Positions 2,512 to 10,651 of a DNA stretch of 10,655 nt are shown piece by piece. This DNA is from Alistipes sp. Its GTDB lineage: Bacteria > Bacteroidota > Bacteroidia > Bacteroidales > Rikenellaceae. Position 1 is the stretch's first letter. The number at the start of each line of letters is the position of its first letter. The stretch lies in contig JAGBYV010000255.1 of NCBI GenBank assembly GCA_017628595.1, positions 1 through 10,655 of the forward strand. Reading direction: 5' to 3'. The translations under genes were made by a program, and so were the position numbers. The notes beneath the pieces were generated by a model that was given only the letters and a program-made list of their open reading frames with translations, had not been told where the DNA came from and did no database searches.

Positions 2512-2543
2512 ATTGATTTAATAGAAAAAATATTATAACTTTG
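2512..2543 (+). promoter_or_regulatory. Promoter of the cytochrome/chorismatase-like/HzsA-like/esterase operon
   Basis: ATTG (2512-2515), a spacer of 20 bp and TAACTTTG (2536-2543) fit the Bacteroidetes sigma-ABfr type promoter, with one mismatch in the -33 box. The start should fall near 2550, leaving a leader of about 90 nt before the ATG at 2642. No comparable promoter is seen in the short gaps inside the downstream four-gene block, so this is the likely single promoter for it. Confidence 0.65.
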
Positions 2544-2555
2544 CCTATTGGCATT

Positions 2556-2584
2556 TCGTGCGCGCGCCTAAGGTGCGTGTGCGA
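2556..2584 (+). promoter_or_regulatory. GC-rich hairpin in the predicted 5' leader
   Basis: Bases 2556-2568 can pair with 2572-2584 around a TAA loop (2569-2571): 13 consecutive pairs, of which four are G-U in RNA. It begins only a few nucleotides after the predicted start of transcription and is far more GC-rich than the flanking DNA. No T-tract follows, so it is not a simple intrinsic terminator. It could stabilise the mRNA 5' end, be part of a leader control element, or be a protein-binding site. Confidence 0.5.
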
Positions 2585-2641
2585 CTACCCTAACCCGAAT
2601 ATTGACTGCCCAAGTTGCCGCGTGCAACGAAAAATGTAAAG

Positions 2642-4411
2642 ATGAAAGGAGCTTTAAAACTCATACCCATAGCGCTCTCTGCCCTGCTGTTGCTATGCGC
2701 CGGGGTCGATAGAGAGAATGTACTGCCGATGTACACTAGCTCGATTGACCTGACGACGGATGGACGTGTAGTGCTGGCCAATAAGGGAACGCGCGAAGTT
2801 GTGATTCTGGCCAAGGATGGTCAGGTGGCGCAGCGCTGGGCTCTTGAGGAGCCTGCGACGGGTGTTGCGGTGGCTGGAGATAAGTTATTTGTTACGAGTT
2901 CTCACGCCAAGGGTTTTCTTTCGTGCATCAGCCTCTCGGATGGACAGGTTTTGTATCGCGCAGAGACAGCGATGGGAGCCTGCGCTCCCGTGGTGAGCCT
3001 CGATGGTGAGAAGGTCTATGTGATGAACCGCTATCGTGGTACGGTGAGCGAGGTGAAGGCCTCGACGGGTGAGGTGTTGCGCTCGGTGGCTGTGCTGCGT
3101 GAGCCGTGTGCGGCGGTCTTGTCGCCCGATGGTCGCTATCTGTATGTGAATAATCACTTCCCTGCACAGCGCGCTGATGTGGATTATGTGGCAGCCGATG
3201 TCTCGGTGATTGATTGCCAGTCGTTCGAGCGAGTGAAGGATATTAAGTTGAGCAACGGCAGTAACGCCCTGCGTGGTATTGCTTGTTCACCCGATGGCCG
3301 CTATGTATTTGTGTCGCACAACCTCGGTCGTTTTCAGGTGCCTACATCGCAGTTGCAACAGGGTTGGATGAATACCAACGCCGTGAGTGTAATTGACACT
3401 TCTACGCAGAGCCTTGTGGGTTCCATATCGCTCGACGAACCTGATCGTGGTGCTGGAGGTATCTGGGATGTGAAGTGTGACGGGCAGTGGCTCGTGACCT
3501 CGCAGTCGGGTACGCACGATGTGAGCATTGTGGATTACAAGGCAATGATTGAGAAACTCAATGCCTACGCCGATAAGTCGAAGCTTGACTATGATCTATA
3601 CTTCATGCGCGGTATTCGTGTGCGTCTGCCTATTGAGGGCAATGGTCCACGAGCTATGGCGATGCGTGATGGTAAGATATATCTGCCGACCTACTTCTCC
3701 GATACGCTCAATATAGTTGATGTGTCAGCGCAGAAGGTTGATGCGGTGGCGTATAATCCCGCCCGTGTGGAGTCTGCATGCGATAAGGGTGAGCGAGCCT
3801 TCAACGATGCTTCGCTCTGCTATCAGAACTGGCAGTCGTGCAATGGTTGCCACCCCGACGATGGCCGCACCGACGGCATGAACTGGGACTTGATGAACGA
3901 CGGCATTGGCAATCCGAAGAACTGCAAGAGTATGTTATTCAGTTTTCAGACACCAAAGAATATGATCTCCGGCATCCGCGACCATGCGGGTATTGCCGTC
4001 AGAGCGGGATATAAGTTTATTCAGTTCTGTGATGTGGATGAGCCGACGGCTACCAATGTCGATGAGTATATCCGTTCGCTGGAGCCTCTGCCCAGCCCCT
4101 ATCTTGTTGATGGAGAGCTCTCGGAGAGGGCTTTGCAGGGTCGTAAGGTGTACGAAAAGTATGGTTGTGCCGAGTGTCACTCGGGTCCATACTATACCGA
4201 TATGCAGATGCATCATATCGGCGAGGATGTGGAGTTTGAACAGGGATGGGATACCCCCACACTGCGCGAGGTGTGGCGTACGGCGCCCTATCTATTCGAT
4301 GGTCGTGCTGCCACGATGGAGGAGGTCTTTACGGTGCATAAGCACGGTATCGAGGGTAAAATATCGCGTAAGGATGCTGAGGCATTGGCTGAATTTGTAA
4401 ATTCGTTGTAA
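2642..4411 (+). CDS. Secreted YVTN-type beta-propeller / diheme cytochrome c (MauG/CcpA-like) fusion protein
   Basis: This 589-residue exported protein has two parts. Residues about 30-375 form a beta-propeller with repeated blade texts such as SLDGEKVYVMN, SPDGRYLYVNN and SPDGRYVFVSHN, each followed by a VIDxxS-type strand. Residues about 385-589 form a cytochrome c domain with two haem sites, CNGCH (400-404) and CAECH (509-513). The texts MNWDLMNDGIGNPKN and TPTLREVWRTAPYLFDG are typical of the diheme cytochrome c peroxidase/MauG superfamily; the usual PYLHDG histidine is phenylalanine here. I chose the ATG at 2642 because it opens a proper signal sequence (MKGALKLIPIALSALLLLCAG); an in-frame TTG at 2615 would put polar residues before it. 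The cysteine in LLLLCAG might be lipidated, but leucine at -1 makes a poor lipobox. It is the first gene of the operon, 8 bp before the next. It probably carries electrons or oxidises a substrate in the periplasm; the substrate is unknown. Confidence 0.88.
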   Translation: MKGALKLIPIALSALLLLCAGVDRENVLPMYTSSIDLTTDGRVVLANKGTREVVILAKDGQVAQRWALEEPATGVAVAGDKLFVTSSHAKGFLSCISLSDGQVLYRAETAMGACAPVVSLDGEKVYVMNRYRGTVSEVKASTGEVLRSVAVLREPCAAVLSPDGRYLYVNNHFPAQRADVDYVAADVSVIDCQSFERVKDIKLSNGSNALRGIACSPDGRYVFVSHNLGRFQVPTSQLQQGWMNTNAVSVIDTSTQSLVGSISLDEPDRGAGGIWDVKCDGQWLVTSQSGTHDVSIVDYKAMIEKLNAYADKSKLDYDLYFMRGIRVRLPIEGNGPRAMAMRDGKIYLPTYFSDTLNIVDVSAQKVDAVAYNPARVESACDKGERAFNDASLCYQNWQSCNGCHPDDGRTDGMNWDLMNDGIGNPKNCKSMLFSFQTPKNMISGIRDHAGIAVRAGYKFIQFCDVDEPTATNVDEYIRSLEPLPSPYLVDGELSERALQGRKVYEKYGCAECHSGPYYTDMQMHHIGEDVEFEQGWDTPTLREVWRTAPYLFDGRAATMEEVFTVHKHGIEGKISRKDAEALAEFVNSL

Positions 4412-4419
4412 AAAGATAA

Positions 4420-5517
4420 ATGATTAGAAAAGAGTATAATATTTACCGATCTGAGGCTGCCTCGTTTGATGAGGCTTTGAGTGAATTGCTTGCAGCCATG
4501 GTCGGGGTAGAACGAGAGATTGTACGCATCGTATTGTTCGGTGCCCCCAAGGATAATGTAGAGTATGGCGAGCAGCGCACGCTCTTCGAGCAGCGTTGTC
4601 GGATGCATTTTGGCGAGCGTGTGCCAATGTTGAGTTATGTGGCTCAGGCGCCGCTGCGTTACAGTTTGGCTGCCGAGGTGACAACCATTTCGCGTGAGGA
4701 TGCACGGCAAATAGTTCGTCATGAGGATTACATAACCCTTGGCGATGAGATTCTTTCGGCCGGTATATATGCTCCGCTGGAGAAGAATGTGGCGCAGCAG
4801 GCTGAGCAGATTTTTGCCCGTGTGTCAGAGATCCTGTCCGCAGAGGGCGTTTCGACATCCGATATTGTGCGTCAGTGGAATTACATTGAGCGTATCACAC
4901 ATATGGCCGAGGAGGGGCAGCACTACCAGCTGTTCAACGATGCTCGTAGCCATTTCTATCAGGGTTGCCAGTGGCATAACGGCTACCCTGCCGCTACAGG
5001 TATCGGCACACAGGCTGGAGGTGTAACGGTGCTCTTCGATGCCGTGAGGAGTAGCGCTCTCCATTCGAAGGCTGTGGATAATCCGTTGCAGATCTCGGCG
5101 CACGCCTACTCGCAGCAGGTGCTCATCAACAATACACAGTCGCACAAGACCACACCCAAGTTCGAGCGTGCACGTTATATGAGTGGCGATGATGCGTCGG
5201 TCTATATTTCGGGTACGGCGGCCATACGTGGCGAGGAGAGTTGCAGCGAAGATGCTGTGGGTCAGACCCGCCTAACGATGGAGAATATAGACTACCTCAT
5301 CAGTGAAGAGAATCTCATTAAGAGTGGCGTGGCGGAGCCCGAAAAGATGGCTTACGCATCGCTGCGCGCCTACTTAAAATATAGAGATGATTTGGAGCAG
5401 GTCGTGGAGTGGATGGATAGAAACTACCCTCAGGTTGATGTACTCTACCTGTGGGCAGATATATGTCGTGAGGAGTTGCTTATTGAGATTGAGGGTATAG
5501 CAAAACAGGTAAACTAA
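4420..5517 (+). CDS. Chorismatase-like protein (FkbO/Hyg5/XanB2 family, YjgF/RidA-type fold)
   Basis: This 365-residue protein has no signal peptide and should be cytoplasmic. Texts matching the chorismatase family as I know it are W153-N-Y-I, YQLFNDAR (169-176), GYPAATGIG (188-196), SGTAAIRGEES (264-274) and a C-terminal DICREELLIEIEG, whose glutamates E356 or E358 may match the catalytic glutamate of FkbO/Hyg5. Characterised members hydrolyse chorismate to 3- or 4-hydroxybenzoate or a dihydrocyclohexadiene carboxylate plus pyruvate; automatic pipelines may label such proteins Rid-family or pteridine-dependent deoxygenase. Members I recall read SGTASIxGH in the middle motif, while this one has GEE, so the reaction may differ. 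The family call is fairly secure and the reaction is not. The start is 8 bp after the cytochrome gene stop and the next gene follows 20 bp later, so it is an operon member between two exported haem proteins. It may supply an aromatic acid or cofactor precursor. Confidence 0.75.
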   Translation: MIRKEYNIYRSEAASFDEALSELLAAMVGVEREIVRIVLFGAPKDNVEYGEQRTLFEQRCRMHFGERVPMLSYVAQAPLRYSLAAEVTTISREDARQIVRHEDYITLGDEILSAGIYAPLEKNVAQQAEQIFARVSEILSAEGVSTSDIVRQWNYIERITHMAEEGQHYQLFNDARSHFYQGCQWHNGYPAATGIGTQAGGVTVLFDAVRSSALHSKAVDNPLQISAHAYSQQVLINNTQSHKTTPKFERARYMSGDDASVYISGTAAIRGEESCSEDAVGQTRLTMENIDYLISEENLIKSGVAEPEKMAYASLRAYLKYRDDLEQVVEWMDRNYPQVDVLYLWADICREELLIEIEGIAKQVN

Positions 5518-5537
5518 CAACTTAAAACAATACTGCA

Positions 5538-8500
5538 ATGAAACTGAGAATTTTCATTCTGCTGGCACTCATCGGCGCCACTTCGGCGTGGGCTGATCCT
5601 ACGCCCAGGCAGGTGGAGGCTATGCGCACTGAGGCCGAGATGACCTACTTCAGCGTGGAGTCGGTGCGTAAGGCATACAATGATTTCTGTAAAACGGCGG
5701 GCTACGACAAGGCTCGTTATGGAGCACTCGTTGCCGAGCTGGAGAAGGCTTGCGCACCAGGAAGCGGAGTGAGCGATGAGCGTAAGATTGCACTAAAGCG
5801 TGAGATATTGCTCTCTAACCCATTGCTGGACAATGCGAAGATCATCGTAGGTCGTTACCGTATTGGTGAGAAGGCTCGCGAGGTGATGGCACCTTCGTTG
5901 GGTACACAGAATAACAACTGGTCAAATCAGTCGTCGGCTGCTCGTAAGGGTTTTGATGCCGAGATTGCCGAGTTGTCAAATCTGCGTGGCGAGGTTGAGA
6001 GCCGCACGATCTATAAGCCCAAGCATAGCACAGCCGTAACGGATATGTTGCTGCACTGGGATGGTGAGCGCATCCTTTTTACTGCCGCTGACGAGAATGA
6101 GCGTTGGGGTGTATATGAGGTTAAGCGTGACGGTTCGAATATGCATAAGGTGATTAAGTCGGAGGAGCCCGATCTGGAGTTCTTCGATGGAGCGTATATG
6201 CCTTCGGGACGAATCATTGCGATGAGTAACATCGGCTATCAGGGTGTGCCCTGTGTGAATGGTAGCGACCCTGTGGGTAATATGATTGCTTATGAGCCCT
6301 CGACGGGTGAGATGCGCCGCATGACCTTCGATCAGGATGCCAACTGGCACCCCCGTGTGATGAATAATGGCCGACTGATGTATGTGCGCTGGGAGTACAC
6401 CGATCTTACGCACTACTATTCGCGTTTTGTGATGCACGCCAACCCCGACGGTACGGAGACAAAGGCTCTGTATGGTAGCGGCGGCTGGTTCCCCAACTCA
6501 ATCTTCGATGTGCAGCCCCTGCCGGGCGGAAACAATACCTTCGTGGGAATCATCTCGGGTCACCACGGAGTGGCTCGTTCGGGTCGTCTGATTCTGTTTG
6601 ATCCTTCGATGGGTCGTAAGGAGACCAAAGGTATGATTCAGGAGATGCCCTTCTCGCAACGCGAGATTGTGCCCATCATCAAGGATGAGCTGGTGGATGG
6701 CGTATGGCCTCAGTTTGTGAAGCCCTACCCCGTGAGTGATAAGTATTTCCTTGTGTCGGCTAAACTTACGCCCGAATCGCTGTGGGGTATCTATCTGGTC
6801 GATATCTATGACAATATGACTCTTTTGGCGGAGTTTGAGGGTGAGGGTCTTATCAACCCCATTATCGTAAACAAGCGCCCCACGCCTCCCATTATTCCCG
6901 ATCGCATCAAGCCCCAGGAGAAGGAGGCAACGGTATTTATCCAGGATATTTATCAGGGCGAAGGTCTGCCCGGTGTGCCCGTTGGTACGGTTAAGAAGTT
7001 GCGTGTATTTGCATACGAATATACATACGTAAATTCAGAGTCGGATCATATCGCACAGGGTATCCAGAGCGGATGGGACATCAAGCGTAACCTAGGAGAG
7101 GTGGATGTTGAACCCGATGGCTCGGCAATGTTTAAGATTCCTGCCAATACGCCCGTATCGTTCCAGCCGCTGGACGAGGAGGGACGTGCCATCCAGTGGA
7201 TGCGTAGCTGGGTGACAGGTATGCCCGGTGAGGTGCTCTCGTGTGTGGGATGCCACGAGGATCAGAACTCATTGCCCATGCCCAAGCGTGTGATGGCATC
7301 GACCAAGGCTCCCGCTGCGTTGCAGACTCCCGAGGGCGGTGTGCGTTCGTTTACATTCGATCTGGAGGTGCAGCCAATACTCGACCGCAACTGCATCGCG
7401 TGCCACAATGCTGATGGTGCAAAGCCCGACTTCAGAGGCATTAAGGTTGTGGAGAAGGATGATGATAAGGCTGGAAGTTACTCTACCCCGTCGCACCGAG
7501 CCGAGTCGGGCCGATTGGATCTTACGCTGAGTTATCTGAATATTCACCCCTATGTTAACCGTCAGGGTCCCGAGGCTGATATATATGTTATGAAGCCATA
7601 CGAGTACCACGCTTCGACATCGGAGCTGGTGCGTATCCTGAAGGCTGGCCACCACGGCGTGGAGCTTACGGATAAGGAGTGGCGCACGCTCTATACGTGG
7701 ATCGACTTCAATGCTCCGCACCACGGACGTTTCGTATATAATAAGGTGTGGTATAGCCCCTACGATCAGTATGAGCGTCGCATCGAGCTTGCCAACAAGT
7801 ATGGTAATGGCGCAGGTGTTGAGTGGAAGCGCGAGCTGGAGGAGTATGAGCAGTGGCTTAAGGCTCATCCTCAGCCTGCGGCTGTACGCAAGGAGGTAAA
7901 GGAGCCTAACTATAAGGATGTGAAGAGCAAGCGATTCCCCTTCACCGAAGCTGAGGCATTGGAAATGGCCAAGCGCTACGGCACCGATCGCCGCACAATT
8001 GAGTTAGCCGATGGAGTGAAGATGACGCTTGTGAGAATCCCTGCCGGCACATTCATTATGGGTAACAACAACCGCGGCTTGGACAATGCTCCTGCATCGG
8101 TAGTGAAGATCGACCGCCCCTTCTGGATGTCAGAGACTGAGGTTACGAATGAGCAGTATAACACCGTTGATCCCTCGCACGACAGCCGCTTTACGGCGCA
8201 GTTCTGGAAGGATCACGTAGGCCCTGGCTATGCCGCCAACCGTCCTTCGCAGCCCGTTACACGCATCTCGTGGAATGAGGCTATGGAGTTCTGTCGTGTG
8301 GTGAGCGAGCGTGTAGGCGCAAAGGTTACACTTCCGACCGAGGCACAATGGGAGTGGGCATGCCGTGCGGGTAGCGATACCGATTTCTGGTATGGCGATT
8401 TGAATTCAGATTTTGCCGCGCAGGAGAATCTGGCCGATCAGTCACTGCGCAAGATGGCCGTATCGGGTGTGGATCCGCAGCCCGTGGCAGAGGATAATTG

Positions 8501-8813
8501 GGTGTATAAATATTATACATATATGCCCCGTGAGGATAGTGTGAATGATGGTACGATGACCATTGCCGATGTGGCGCAGTATAAGCCCAACGTGTGGGGT
8601 CTGTATGATATGCACGGCAATGTGGCGGAGTTTACCCGTTCGACCTATGCCCCCTACCCCTACAAGGGCGAGCCTGCGGAGGGCAAGGATAAGGTTGTGC
8701 GTGGCGGTGCATGGGATGTGCGCCCGAAGAATTCGACGGCTTACGCCCGTAAGTCGTATCTTGCTTGGCAGCCGGGTAATAACGTAGGTTTCCGAGTGGT
8801 AATTGAGGAGTAA
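5538..8813 (+). CDS. Secreted HzsA-like multidomain protein with two CXXCH haem sites and a C-terminal FGE/sulfatase-modifying-factor-like domain
   Basis: This 1091-residue exported protein starts with a clean signal peptide (cleavage after AWA, residue 19). An N-terminal helical part carries NPLLDNAKIIVGRY (about 94-107), a text typical of hydrazine-synthase-alpha-related proteins. A propeller-like region (about 170-435) and an HzsA-type middle region (about 465-560) follow. Then come two haem sites, CVGCH (569-573) and CIACH (619-623), the second in a PSCyt-like context (FDLEVQPILDRNCIACHNADG). Residues about 826-1090 are a formylglycine-generating-enzyme-type domain: MTLVRIPAGTFIMG, SETEVTNEQY, LPTEAQWEWACRAG, DMHGNVAEF (GNVAE at 1027-1031), RGGAW (1055-1059) and GFR (1084-1086). 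The paired cysteines of true FGE after RGG are absent, so formylglycine formation is unlikely. HzsA relatives occur outside anammox bacteria, so hydrazine synthesis should not be assumed. It is probably a periplasmic or surface oxidoreductase with an unknown substrate, possibly a partner of the operon's other cytochrome. Confidence 0.85.
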   Translation: MKLRIFILLALIGATSAWADPTPRQVEAMRTEAEMTYFSVESVRKAYNDFCKTAGYDKARYGALVAELEKACAPGSGVSDERKIALKREILLSNPLLDNAKIIVGRYRIGEKAREVMAPSLGTQNNNWSNQSSAARKGFDAEIAELSNLRGEVESRTIYKPKHSTAVTDMLLHWDGERILFTAADENERWGVYEVKRDGSNMHKVIKSEEPDLEFFDGAYMPSGRIIAMSNIGYQGVPCVNGSDPVGNMIAYEPSTGEMRRMTFDQDANWHPRVMNNGRLMYVRWEYTDLTHYYSRFVMHANPDGTETKALYGSGGWFPNSIFDVQPLPGGNNTFVGIISGHHGVARSGRLILFDPSMGRKETKGMIQEMPFSQREIVPIIKDELVDGVWPQFVKPYPVSDKYFLVSAKLTPESLWGIYLVDIYDNMTLLAEFEGEGLINPIIVNKRPTPPIIPDRIKPQEKEATVFIQDIYQGEGLPGVPVGTVKKLRVFAYEYTYVNSESDHIAQGIQSGWDIKRNLGEVDVEPDGSAMFKIPANTPVSFQPLDEEGRAIQWMRSWVTGMPGEVLSCVGCHEDQNSLPMPKRVMASTKAPAALQTPEGGVRSFTFDLEVQPILDRNCIACHNADGAKPDFRGIKVVEKDDDKAGSYSTPSHRAESGRLDLTLSYLNIHPYVNRQGPEADIYVMKPYEYHASTSELVRILKAGHHGVELTDKEWRTLYTWIDFNAPHHGRFVYNKVWYSPYDQYERRIELANKYGNGAGVEWKRELEEYEQWLKAHPQPAAVRKEVKEPNYKDVKSKRFPFTEAEALEMAKRYGTDRRTIELADGVKMTLVRIPAGTFIMGNNNRGLDNAPASVVKIDRPFWMSETEVTNEQYNTVDPSHDSRFTAQFWKDHVGPGYAANRPSQPVTRISWNEAMEFCRVVSERVGAKVTLPTEAQWEWACRAGSDTDFWYGDLNSDFAAQENLADQSLRKMAVSGVDPQPVAEDNWVYKYYTYMPREDSVNDGTMTIADVAQYKPNVWGLYDMHGNVAEFTRSTYAPYPYKGEPAEGKDKVVRGGAWDVRPKNSTAYARKSYLAWQPGNNVGFRVVIEE

Positions 8814-8834
8814 ACTAACCAAATTAATAGAACT

Positions 8835-9917
8835 ATGAGAAAGATTTTATTTGCCGCAATGGCTTTGCTGGTGAGTGTGAGTGCAAATGCTCAGTTCCAG
8901 CGTACGCCCACACCCAATGACAAACTGGTGTCGGTAGAGACAGCGAAAGATGGTAGCGTGACATTCCGTATCTATGCTCCCAATGCAAAACAGGTAGGCC
9001 TCTCGGGCGATATTGGTGCTCGTGGTCTTACATTTACAAAGTCAGACGATGGCGTGTGGAGCGCAACACTGCCTAATGTAACTCCTGGTGCATTCCGTTA
9101 TACATTCGTAGTGGATGGTATTACGGTGTTTGATCCCAAGTATTCTCGTTTGGGTGAGATTCGTCCCGTAGTGGAGATTTTGCCTCAGGATCAGGATGCT
9201 TTCTGGGCGATGAAGGACGTGCCTCACGGTGCTGTGGCTCAGGTTTATTACAAGTCATCAACGATGGGCACAACACGACGTATGCATGTGTGGACACCTG
9301 CGGGTTACAACGCTTCTGTAGATAAGTTGCCTGTGCTGTATCTGATTCACGGTGGTGGTGATAACGACGCCTCTTGGCCCGGCGTAGGTCGTGCTGGTCA
9401 GATTCTGGATAATCTGTTGGCAGAGGGTAAGATGGTGCCTATGGTGGTTGTAATGCCCGATGGTAGCATCTCTACTGACAAGTTCCCCGATGAGCTTACC
9501 AAGGATATTATCCCCTTCGTTGAAAAGAATTACCGCGTGAAGACCGACTCTGCAAACCGTGCTCTGGCAGGTTTGTCGATGGGTGGTTTGGAGACTTTGG
9601 ATTCATTTATGGCTCACCCCGATATGTTCGGTTATATCAACGTGATGAGTTCGGGTTGGTTCACCAACAACAAGGAGATGTACGAGAAGGGCGAGGCACG
9701 CCTTAAGGAGATCGCTGCAACGCTGAACAAAACTGCCAAGCTGCTTATCTTCACTCAGGGTGGCGAGGAGGATATCGCCTACGCTAACGGCAAGGCTATG
9801 CTGGAGGTGTTCAAGAAGTGCGGTATCAAGTTCGAGTACAGCGAGATGCCTGGTGGCCACACTTGGCACGTATGGCGTCACGACTTGCACAACCTGGCTC
9901 CCAGATTGTTCAAGTAG
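8835..9917 (+). CDS. Secreted esterase, CE1 / esterase-D (feruloyl or enterochelin esterase-like) with N-terminal E-set domain
   Basis: This 360-residue exported hydrolase has a signal peptide MRKILFAAMALLVSVSANA (cleavage after residue 19). Residues about 35-115 form a glycogen-binding/E-set-like beta domain (VTFRIYAPNAKQVGLSGDI, then GVWSATLPNVTPGAFRYTFVVDG). Residues about 125-358 are an alpha/beta hydrolase of the esterase PF00756 type. The oxyanion text LIHGGGDNDASW has HGGG at 172-175, the nucleophile is S248 in GLSMGG, and H342 in GGHTWHVWR is the likely catalytic histidine; the acid is probably one of E311-D313 in GGEEDIA. Many Bacteroidetes relatives sit in xylan loci and remove hydroxycinnamoyl or acetyl groups, but no glycan genes are seen here. 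As last gene of the operon, 21 bp after the HzsA-like gene and just before a terminator, it may release an aromatic or other acyl ester used by the system. The exact substrate is unknown. Confidence 0.88.
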   Translation: MRKILFAAMALLVSVSANAQFQRTPTPNDKLVSVETAKDGSVTFRIYAPNAKQVGLSGDIGARGLTFTKSDDGVWSATLPNVTPGAFRYTFVVDGITVFDPKYSRLGEIRPVVEILPQDQDAFWAMKDVPHGAVAQVYYKSSTMGTTRRMHVWTPAGYNASVDKLPVLYLIHGGGDNDASWPGVGRAGQILDNLLAEGKMVPMVVVMPDGSISTDKFPDELTKDIIPFVEKNYRVKTDSANRALAGLSMGGLETLDSFMAHPDMFGYINVMSSGWFTNNKEMYEKGEARLKEIAATLNKTAKLLIFTQGGEEDIAYANGKAMLEVFKKCGIKFEYSEMPGGHTWHVWRHDLHNLAPRLFK

Positions 9918-9938
9918 CAGTTTGTCGAACGTAATATT

Positions 9939-9972
9939 ATGGCGTATGGGTTATCCCGTGCGCCATTTTTTT
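9939..9972 (+). terminator. Rho-independent terminator of the four-gene operon
   Basis: Bases 9939-9950 pair with 9955-9966 in an uninterrupted 12-bp stem (two G-U pairs) around the loop TTAT, directly followed by a run of T up to 9972. It begins 21 bp after the esterase stop, a classic position. The T-tract overlaps the -33 box of the next promoter. Confidence 0.85.
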
Positions 9973-10000
9973 GTATTTGAGAATTTTATCCATATCTTTG
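9970..10000 (+). promoter_or_regulatory. Promoter of the CAT-family gene
   Basis: TTTG (9970-9973), 19 bp, then TATCTTTG (9993-10000): an exact Bacteroidetes-type promoter. Transcription would start near 10007 and leave a leader of about 20 nt before the ATG at 10028. The -33 box is built from the last bases of the upstream terminator's T-tract, so the two elements are fused. The gene is therefore a unit of its own. Confidence 0.8.
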
Positions 10001-10027: not shown

Positions 10028-10651
10028 ATGAAAGAGATTGATCCCAAACAGACAAGCCGTGCATATGCCTTCGAGATGTGGATGCAGGCACCTATGCCGA
10101 TGGTGACTTTTTTTAAGACACTGAATGTGTCACGCCTTGTGAAGATAAGTCGCAGGAAGGGCTTGAAATTCAATATGCTTATGTGCTACTGCATTGCTCG
10201 TGCGGCAAGCCGTGTGAAGGAGTTTTATTTGTTGCCCGTGGGTGAAAAGCTGATGCAGTACGATACCATTGCCGTGAATACCATTGTGGCAAATAGTCAG
10301 GGTGAGGTTAGTTCGTGCGATATGCCCTACTGTGATGATTTGCAGCAGTTCAACGCCGATTATCTGCGTCTTGCGCGACAAGTGGCAGATTCGTGTCAGG
10401 ATTATGACCTTTCGCAGAAGAGTATGGTTATCGGTACCTCGGCACTTGCAAAGTATGAGATTGATGGCGCTGTTGGAATGTATAGCGGAGTGTTTAATAA
10501 CCCATTCCTTATTTGGGGAAAATATCGTCGCTCGTGGTTCAAGACTTCACTCGTGCTGTCGTTTCAGTTTCACCACACGCAGATGGATGGCGCACATGCG
10601 GCACACTTTCTCGATCTGTTGCAGCAGGAGATTGGTGCGCTTAAGATATAA
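10028..10651 (+). CDS. Chloramphenicol acetyltransferase family protein (CatA-type acyltransferase)
   Basis: This 207-residue cytoplasmic protein matches the CatA fold family, whose trimeric members move an acetyl group from acetyl-CoA to a hydroxyl. The hallmark HHxxxDG motif is present as FHHTQMDG: H183 should be the catalytic base and D187 the structural aspartate, which in CAT pairs with an arginine near the N-terminus (R11 here is a candidate). The text NPFLIWGKYR near residue 160 and the N-terminal SRAYAFEMWMQAPMPMVTFF also fit the family; typical CATs are about 210-220 residues. It has its own consensus promoter and is separated from the esterase operon by a strong terminator. No mobile element or other resistance gene is next to it, so it may be a chromosomal family member with another acceptor. 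Whether it acetylates chloramphenicol cannot be told from sequence. Confidence 0.85.
   Translation: MKEIDPKQTSRAYAFEMWMQAPMPMVTFFKTLNVSRLVKISRRKGLKFNMLMCYCIARAASRVKEFYLLPVGEKLMQYDTIAVNTIVANSQGEVSSCDMPYCDDLQQFNADYLRLARQVADSCQDYDLSQKSMVIGTSALAKYEIDGAVGMYSGVFNNPFLIWGKYRRSWFKTSLVLSFQFHHTQMDGAHAAHFLDLLQQEIGALKI

Follow-up and report, generated by a model that had tools for sequence, protein, structure and literature searches.

A hydrazine synthase-like gene pair with a chorismatase-type partner in an Alistipes operon

To our knowledge, hydrazine synthase (HZS), the hallmark enzyme of anammox bacteria, was long thought to have no homologues. We analysed a 10,655-nucleotide stretch of Alistipes sp., family Rikenellaceae (contig JAGBYV010000255.1 of assembly GCA_017628595.1; hereafter the window), which carries four genes, g1 to g4, all on the forward strand and separated in the open reading frame (ORF) listing by gaps of 8, 20 and 21 bp (Table 1). 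These gaps and the strong terminator confirmed the four-gene operon of the original prediction, and we infer that all four genes lie on a single transcript. By inspection, export signals are present at the N-termini of g1, g3 and g4 and absent from g2. The families first named for g2, g3 and g4 were borne out, as were the periplasmic redox character of the system and its four CXXCH c-type haem sites, two in g1 and two in g3. The description of g1 as a YVTN-propeller/MauG-like cytochrome proved incomplete: its best matches, among family profiles and PDB entries alike, are HZS beta and HZS gamma. That g1 and g3 together make up an HZS-type set had been missed. Both belong to the HZS superfamily by sequence, and the alpha-like chain and the beta propeller also by predicted fold; the gamma half of g1 is related by sequence only.

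Table 1. Features of the operon; positions are those of the window, and rows are those of the g1 alignment
Feature	Position	Strand	Remarks
-7 promoter element, Bacteroidetes-type, candidate (TAACTTTG)	2536..2543	+	pattern scan
g1, fused HZS beta-gamma-like chain, predicted exported, 7-bladed propeller and di-haem domain, 589 aa	2642..4411	+	alternative start TTG 2615
g1 first CXXCH, CNGCH, residues 400-404, gamma-I-like haem	3839..3853	+	conserved in 43/43 rows
g1 second CXXCH, CAECH, residues 509-513, gamma-II-like haem	4166..4180	+	two CXXCH kept in 43/43 rows
g2, cytosolic FkbO/Hyg5-family chorismatase-like enzyme	4420..5517	+	TIGR04444, PDB 5ag3, CH-II residues
g3, predicted exported HZS alpha-like chain with C-terminal FGE-like domain, 1091 aa	5538..8813	+	propeller, HZS_alpha middle domain, two CXXCH
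g3 first CXXCH, CVGCH, residues 569-573, alpha-I-like haem	7242..7256	+	Asn for Tyr at His+4
g3 second CXXCH, CIACH, residues 619-623, alpha-II-like haem	7392..7406	+	
g4, secreted CE1/CBM48 feruloyl-esterase-like enzyme, optional member	8835..9917	+	PF00756, PDB 6rzn
Intrinsic terminator 3' of g4	9939..9966	+	12-bp stem, 7 G-C pairs, T tail

The g1 product was aligned with its relatives using MAFFT (43 rows, the window copy included). The His144 of HZS gamma is not kept, the position being Ile in 41 rows, Val in one and Ser in one, and the Glu122 position is Asp in all 43. Pairwise alignment of the window copy places a Cys and an Asp (QFCDVD) at the spacing of gamma Cys165 and Asp168. This spacing at first resembled the HZS haem cross-link. 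In 17 of the 43 rows the IQF motif is followed by a Cys, and the multiple alignment has a gap opposite Cys165, so the spacing was not counted towards HZS chemistry. Among the best 50 structural matches listed for the g1 model there is no row for 5c2v_C.

In g3, the HZS_alpha middle domain is present and the predicted fold matches HZS alpha along most of its length. At least two CXXCH motifs occur in 70 of 70 g3 rows (rows of 780 aa or more, window counted in). In anammox HZS, according to the sections of PMC12607021 consulted, haem alpha-I has Tyr591 as its proximal ligand and a zinc ion is held by His587. This Tyr is not kept either: the position four residues after the His of the first alpha haem motif is Asn in 63 of 68 alphas and Tyr in one. 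Residues ~810-1091 of g3 are predicted to adopt the SUMF1-type fold of formylglycine-generating enzyme (FGE), PvdO and GldK, from which this domain differs in being fused to an HZS alpha body and in lacking the catalytic cysteines. Where FGE has the active-site segment GGSYMCHRSYC, the window copy has GGAWDVRPKNSTAYARKS, and 46 of the 51 alphas of at least 1000 aa that match the segment pattern have no Cys in it. As the cysteine pair is missing from the window copy, a formylglycine-generating activity of this domain was rejected. Longer alpha relatives also contain PF08305, which we take to be a carbohydrate-binding module. The window's HZS-like proteins score far below the NCBIfam equivalog/exception cut-offs for HZS (113.9 versus 1250 bits and 35.6 versus 800 bits).

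In architecture, the window set resembles an HZS-type complex. As in anammox HzsABC (PDB 5c2v) and its variants with fused HzsBC, the alpha chain combines a propeller, a middle domain and two haems, a beta propeller accompanies a gamma di-haem domain, and the beta-gamma gene lies upstream of alpha. In contrast to anammox HZS, the alpha chain here carries an FGE-like domain, alpha-Tyr591 and gamma-His144 are lost, a chorismatase is the partner, relatives lie in sugar-gene neighbourhoods and the host is not an anammox bacterium; membership in HZS proper fails on the cut-offs and the key residues. A 2025 survey (PMC12758564), in the parts consulted, describes homologues of HZS in bacteria other than those of anammox and names Bacteroidota among the carriers of beta-gamma homologues. 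Its clades I-IV, from Planctomycetota and Desulfobacterota, likewise have alpha co-located with fused beta-gamma and miss key HZS residues. Clades I-III are described there as having Trp at gamma-144 and FG-GAP neighbours, whereas the present set has Ile at that position, an FGE domain, a chorismatase and a Bacteroidota host. Those parts of the survey mention no Bacteroidota alpha/beta-gamma operon, and among the open-licence PMC papers listed, covered mostly as titles and abstract starts, we found no report of such an operon, of the FGE domain or of a chorismatase partner.

The two chains occur together. Among 150 genomes sampled from the window's family, the alpha family (detected by PF18582) and g1 homologues (E<=1e-40) occupy an identical set of 31, hereafter HZS-positive, and 119 genomes are HZS-negative. 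Across 34 adjacent pairs picked by hand, the identity matrices of alpha and beta-gamma were correlated with r = 0.86, compared to a maximum of 0.43 in 2000 permutations. Second, paralogous pairs stand side by side in loci L005, L017 and L048, and the cytochrome c assembly protein ResB was found in 30 of the 31 HZS-positive genomes compared to 37 of the 119 others. The pairing, the correlated identities, the side-by-side second pairs and the ResB distribution all fit a real haem complex, and from the pairing we infer that g1 and g3 form one. The alpha homologues are also present in cultured Bacteroides and Parabacteroides species, with clusters L025 and L050 belonging to Bacteroides cellulosilyticus and B. 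clarus; an always-paired relative of alpha and beta-gamma in gut bacteria would be a tractable system for the role of the HZS fold outside anammox, and gut metagenome matches that carry a hydrazine synthase annotation need not point to anammox. At least 76 alpha loci came from a pattern-based scan in which L068-L078 match the FGE domain only, and ORFs in the fetched loci were called by a greedy longest-ORF rule that hides some real genes (L126 was recovered by tblastn). In L048 (1638-12276), the paralogous pair sits between the g1 orthologue and the chorismatase.

The g2 product matches TIGR04444 (2.2e-42) and PDB 5ag3 (2.2e-29). The residues that define CH-II (Hyg5-type) chorismatases, which form 3-hydroxybenzoate, are given in the sections of PMC7170507 consulted. 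All four of them (Gly164, Gly231, Cys318 and the catalytic Glu325, Nat-Hyg5 numbering) are present in g2, and the full set is kept in 34 of 34 HZS-linked and 7 of 7 PSD1-linked chorismatase homologues. To judge from these residues, g2 is most likely a cytosolic chorismatase that would convert chorismate to 3-hydroxybenzoate. Its partners differ from those of known CH-II enzymes, being exported cytochrome-type systems and not polyketide or peptide clusters.

The distribution of chorismatases was followed in the same 150 genomes, counting as strong those with E<1e-30 and handling weaker matches (10 further genomes) as a divergent group. Strong chorismatases numbered 37, in 29 of the 31 HZS-positive genomes and 8 of the 119 others. 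In all 29 a g1 homologue adjoins on the same contig, and g2 is thus tied to the g1/g3 pair by co-occurrence and adjacency. This holds even for G145 and G180, where the chorismatase lies beside a distant pair: the beta-gamma chain has 41% identity, and the alpha, at 842 aa, has neither the length for the FGE domain nor its motif. The other eight strong-chorismatase genomes are exactly the eight of the 150 with PSD1 (G208, G239, G254, G255, G263, G266, G136 and G153; loci L120-L127), all of them HZS-negative. In seven of these, the chorismatase, PSCyt2/PSD1 (DUF1549/DUF1553), DUF1501 and repeat-protein genes form a single run (the Pfam names were checked on L120). The eighth has the repeat-protein gene next to the chorismatase where a contig ends, and its PSD1 lies on a different contig. 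Cassettes of the PSCyt2/PSD1-DUF1501 type are typical of Planctomycetes. None of the remaining 111 genomes, with neither an HZS-like pair nor PSD1, has a strong chorismatase. This strict split between two unrelated exported systems raises one testable question, namely what the product does for both.

Beyond the family, an order-level sample of 119 genomes had a chorismatase of any strength in 8 of 9 HZS-positive and 9 of 110 HZS-negative genomes. Strong copies in genomes with neither HZS nor PSD1 were those of G025, beside mono-haem PD40 proteins, and of G102, in an apparent arabinose operon; in G057 a strong copy occurs with PSD1 on a different contig. By eye, a chorismatase-like gene with all CH-II residues (L092:6437-7588) lies inside an apparent L-arabinose operon.

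The gene neighbourhoods of relatives give an indication of the substrate. In Bacteroides-type loci, the interval from chorismatase to alpha holds a D-lyxose/D-mannose-isomerase-like lipoprotein (PDB 7nzo match, 2.1e-20), a VOC-like protein called by eye with no family match, DhaK, DhaL and an LsrF-type aldolase; the isomerase, DhaK, DhaL and LsrF names were assigned on L025. Among the alpha loci listed, the respective clusters count 19, 14, 18, 17 and 18, figures that include the Akkermansiaceae locus L057, which has neither g1 nor a chorismatase. A second type of HZS-like set, in L136 (4846-11204), has an FGGY sugar kinase and a DeoC aldolase between alpha and beta-gamma, and other alpha genes sit in SusC/SusD-like loci, as judged by eye and clustering. 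These neighbours (isomerase, kinase, aldolase and SusCD-like) favour a cytochrome complex of the periplasm with a link to carbohydrates, and they suggest that the HZS-like set handles sugars rather than nitrogen. Elsewhere in the window's own genome (L152:615-2180, G000:C116), a NapC/NirT-type tetrahaem cytochrome is fused to an FGE-like domain; Gfo/Idh and xylose-isomerase-like (TIM-barrel) proteins, both with export-signal-like starts by eye, and ResB/CcsA adjoin this NapC-FGE gene.

The last gene of the operon, g4, is an ordinary CE1/CBM48 feruloyl-esterase relative. Both domains score above their cut-offs (PF00756, 88.6 versus 22 bits, 7.2e-25; PF02922, 31.7 versus 22.4 bits), and the protein resembles PDB 6rzn (2.6e-68) and 7b5v in both domains and over nearly its full length, differing from these enzymes only in its operon position. 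Of 18 close relatives picked by hand, only two, L011 and L046, have an esterase beside g3; L012, L028 and L052 were excluded because there the contig stops within alpha or shortly behind it. The esterase was therefore rejected as a core member of the operon. The co-occurrence that had been envisaged for all four families accordingly holds for a conserved core of g1, g2 and g3 and not for the four together.

We consider it somewhat better than an even chance that the operon encodes a Bacteroidota branch of HZS-superfamily tetrahaem periplasmic complexes, a carbohydrate-directed oxidoreductase with a chorismatase partner and an optional esterase. The fused beta-gamma chain (g1) and the alpha chain with its FGE-like domain (g3) would be the two chains of this complex, which is most likely an oxidoreductase, active in the periplasm or at the cell surface, with a carbohydrate or a compound derived from one as its substrate. 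To judge from the neighbourhoods, electrons may be exchanged with the menaquinone pool, perhaps via NapC-type cytochromes. The 3-hydroxybenzoate predicted to be formed by g2 in the cytosol could, speculatively, supply an aromatic cofactor, mediator or ligand to the pair, and the esterase may be an add-on that trims the same glycan of its acyl or feruloyl groups.

Several observations weigh against this explanation. The carbohydrate link rests on relatives, since the isomerase, DhaKL and LsrF genes are absent from the window and from Alistipes-type loci; no neighbouring gene names a substrate, and the reaction itself is a proposal. NapC-FGE occurs in 14 of the 31 HZS-positive and 16 of the 119 other genomes (30 of 150 in total), so it is not an obligate partner and is suggestive only. 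The score of g2 lies far under the curated TIGR04444 cut-off (145.4 versus 325 bits), which also sets it apart from known CH-II enzymes, and a strong chorismatase is missing from two HZS-positive genomes, G229 and G258. The Akkermansiaceae/Planctomycetia alpha loci L057, L058, L059, L065 and L066 show no chorismatase, and a beta-gamma gene in L065 only, L059 and L066 being cut inside alpha. Model confidence is low for the gamma half of g1 (low pLDDT). Finally, Fisher tests of co-occurrence gave extreme values that ignore shared ancestry.

An unlikely but credible alternative is a respiratory reductase, in which menaquinol would pass electrons to the NapC-FGE tetrahaem protein, from there to the HZS-like complex and on to a gut electron acceptor, for instance a phenolic or sulfated compound. 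The feruloyl esterase of the window, the FGE-like domain common to NapC-FGE and g3, and the presence of NapC-FGE in 8 of 8 HZS-positive genomes of the window's genus (its own genome included) are consistent with this. However, NapC-FGE is missing from 17 of the 31 HZS-positive genomes and present in three HZS-negative genomes of the genus (G206, G234 and G246), and the kinase and aldolase neighbours suggest that the substrate doubles as a carbon source.

We think it rather doubtful that the operon serves a natural-product pathway, with 3-hydroxybenzoate as building block and the exported haem proteins oxidising or coupling the product outside the cell. The CH-II residues of g2 are complete, and a DAHP synthase directly follows alpha in nine of the loci listed; known CH-II enzymes, in the sections of PMC7170507 consulted, feed natural products. 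Set against this, inspection by eye revealed no obvious ligase, carrier protein or ketosynthase among the Bacteroidota loci listed, many neighbours are catabolic sugar genes and a chorismatase homologue belongs to the apparent arabinose operon of L092. Separately, the Akkermansiaceae locus L057 contains a ketosynthase-like ORF (L057_1).

MauG or peroxidase-like chemistry, in which the di-haem protein g1 would protect against H2O2 or modify a partner protein, g3 being that partner, appears improbable. The CCP_MauG profile scores on g1 barely above its cut-off (26.8 versus 25.6 bits) and the MbnH and MauG matches are weak, whereas the HZS gamma and beta-gamma profiles match far better. Position gamma-144 is equivalent to the catalytic Trp of CCP and MauG according to the parts of PMC12758564 consulted, and its Ile in the window and most g1 rows (41 of 43) runs counter to a peroxidase or MauG function. 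Moreover, g3 is itself di-haem and no cognate substrate protein was recognised, leaving the MauG-like protein modification raised in the original prediction without support. A clear CCP_MauG protein (183.5 bits) is encoded elsewhere in the same genome (L001, G000:C196:5776-6219).

It is very improbable that this gut bacterium has a true N-N bond-forming enzyme, one that would join nitrogen from NO or hydroxylamine to ammonia or an organic amine. In its favour, each HZS subunit has a relative here and the two chains are paired, alpha matches in fold along most of its length and the window's QFCDVD has the gamma Cys165/Asp168 spacing in the pairwise alignment. Against it, the IQF motif is followed by a Cys in a minority of g1 rows and the multiple alignment has a gap opposite Cys165, gamma-His144 and alpha-Tyr591 are replaced, the scores lie far under the equivalog cut-offs and the recognised neighbours are sugar genes with no nitrogen genes among them. 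As the HZS-specific gamma-His144 and alpha-Tyr591 are not kept, hydrazine synthesis is unlikely, and the Bacteroidota branch probably makes no hydrazine.

If the oxidoreductase explanation is extended to other chorismatase loci, chorismatase-like proteins might be a shared helper of several unrelated, mostly redox, exported systems in Bacteroidales, with 3-hydroxybenzoate or a derivative as an unrecognised cofactor, ligand or redox mediator and the HZS-type complex as a glycan-attacking haem oxidoreductase. We offer this wider proposal tentatively and think it unlikely to hold as a whole; if true, such a complex would extend the HZS fold to a new chemistry. In L140, L150, L156 and L157, and in part in L142 and L153, the operons that hold divergent chorismatase-like/Rid proteins also encode di-haem, mono-haem and porin-sized proteins. 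Imelysin (Peptidase_M75) is present in these operons, and some have cytochrome-assembly genes, sometimes as a fused ResB-CcsA (the Pfam assignments were made on L150 for DHOR, imelysin and Porin_O_P and on L140 for ResB/CcsA). In L145-L147, the companions of the divergent chorismatase-like proteins are PD40 mono-haem and DUF6057 genes. Since the seven PSD1 proteins tested have no CXXCH, haem is not shared by all of these systems. A PD40 propeller that has one CXXCH recurs as a unit together with a DUF6057-like protein in L145, L146, L147, L091 and L137, with a chorismatase-like gene close by in L091 and L145-L147.

The listed start of g1 is TTG 2615. We consider ATG 2642 the likelier start because the signal-peptide-like segment MKGALKLIPIALSALLLL opens there and the alignments of several relatives begin at this residue. 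The candidate promoter ahead of g1 matches TAnnTTTG, presumably the Bacteroidetes-type -7 box, which occurs twice on the forward strand of the window (2536-2543, and 9993, ahead of the next gene). For the -33 element TTTG is expected, and merely ATTG was present ~20 bp upstream of the 2536-2543 box. Overall, scans of the window showed no enrichment over shuffled sequence for sigma-70 promoters (9 versus 11.8) or terminators (9 versus 8.3), and an Rfam search of the window gave no match. Past the terminator, on the same strand and outside the operon, positions 10028-10651 encode a CatA-like family 2 O-acetyltransferase (360 versus a 250-bit cut-off), for which the -7-like box at 9993 is its own.

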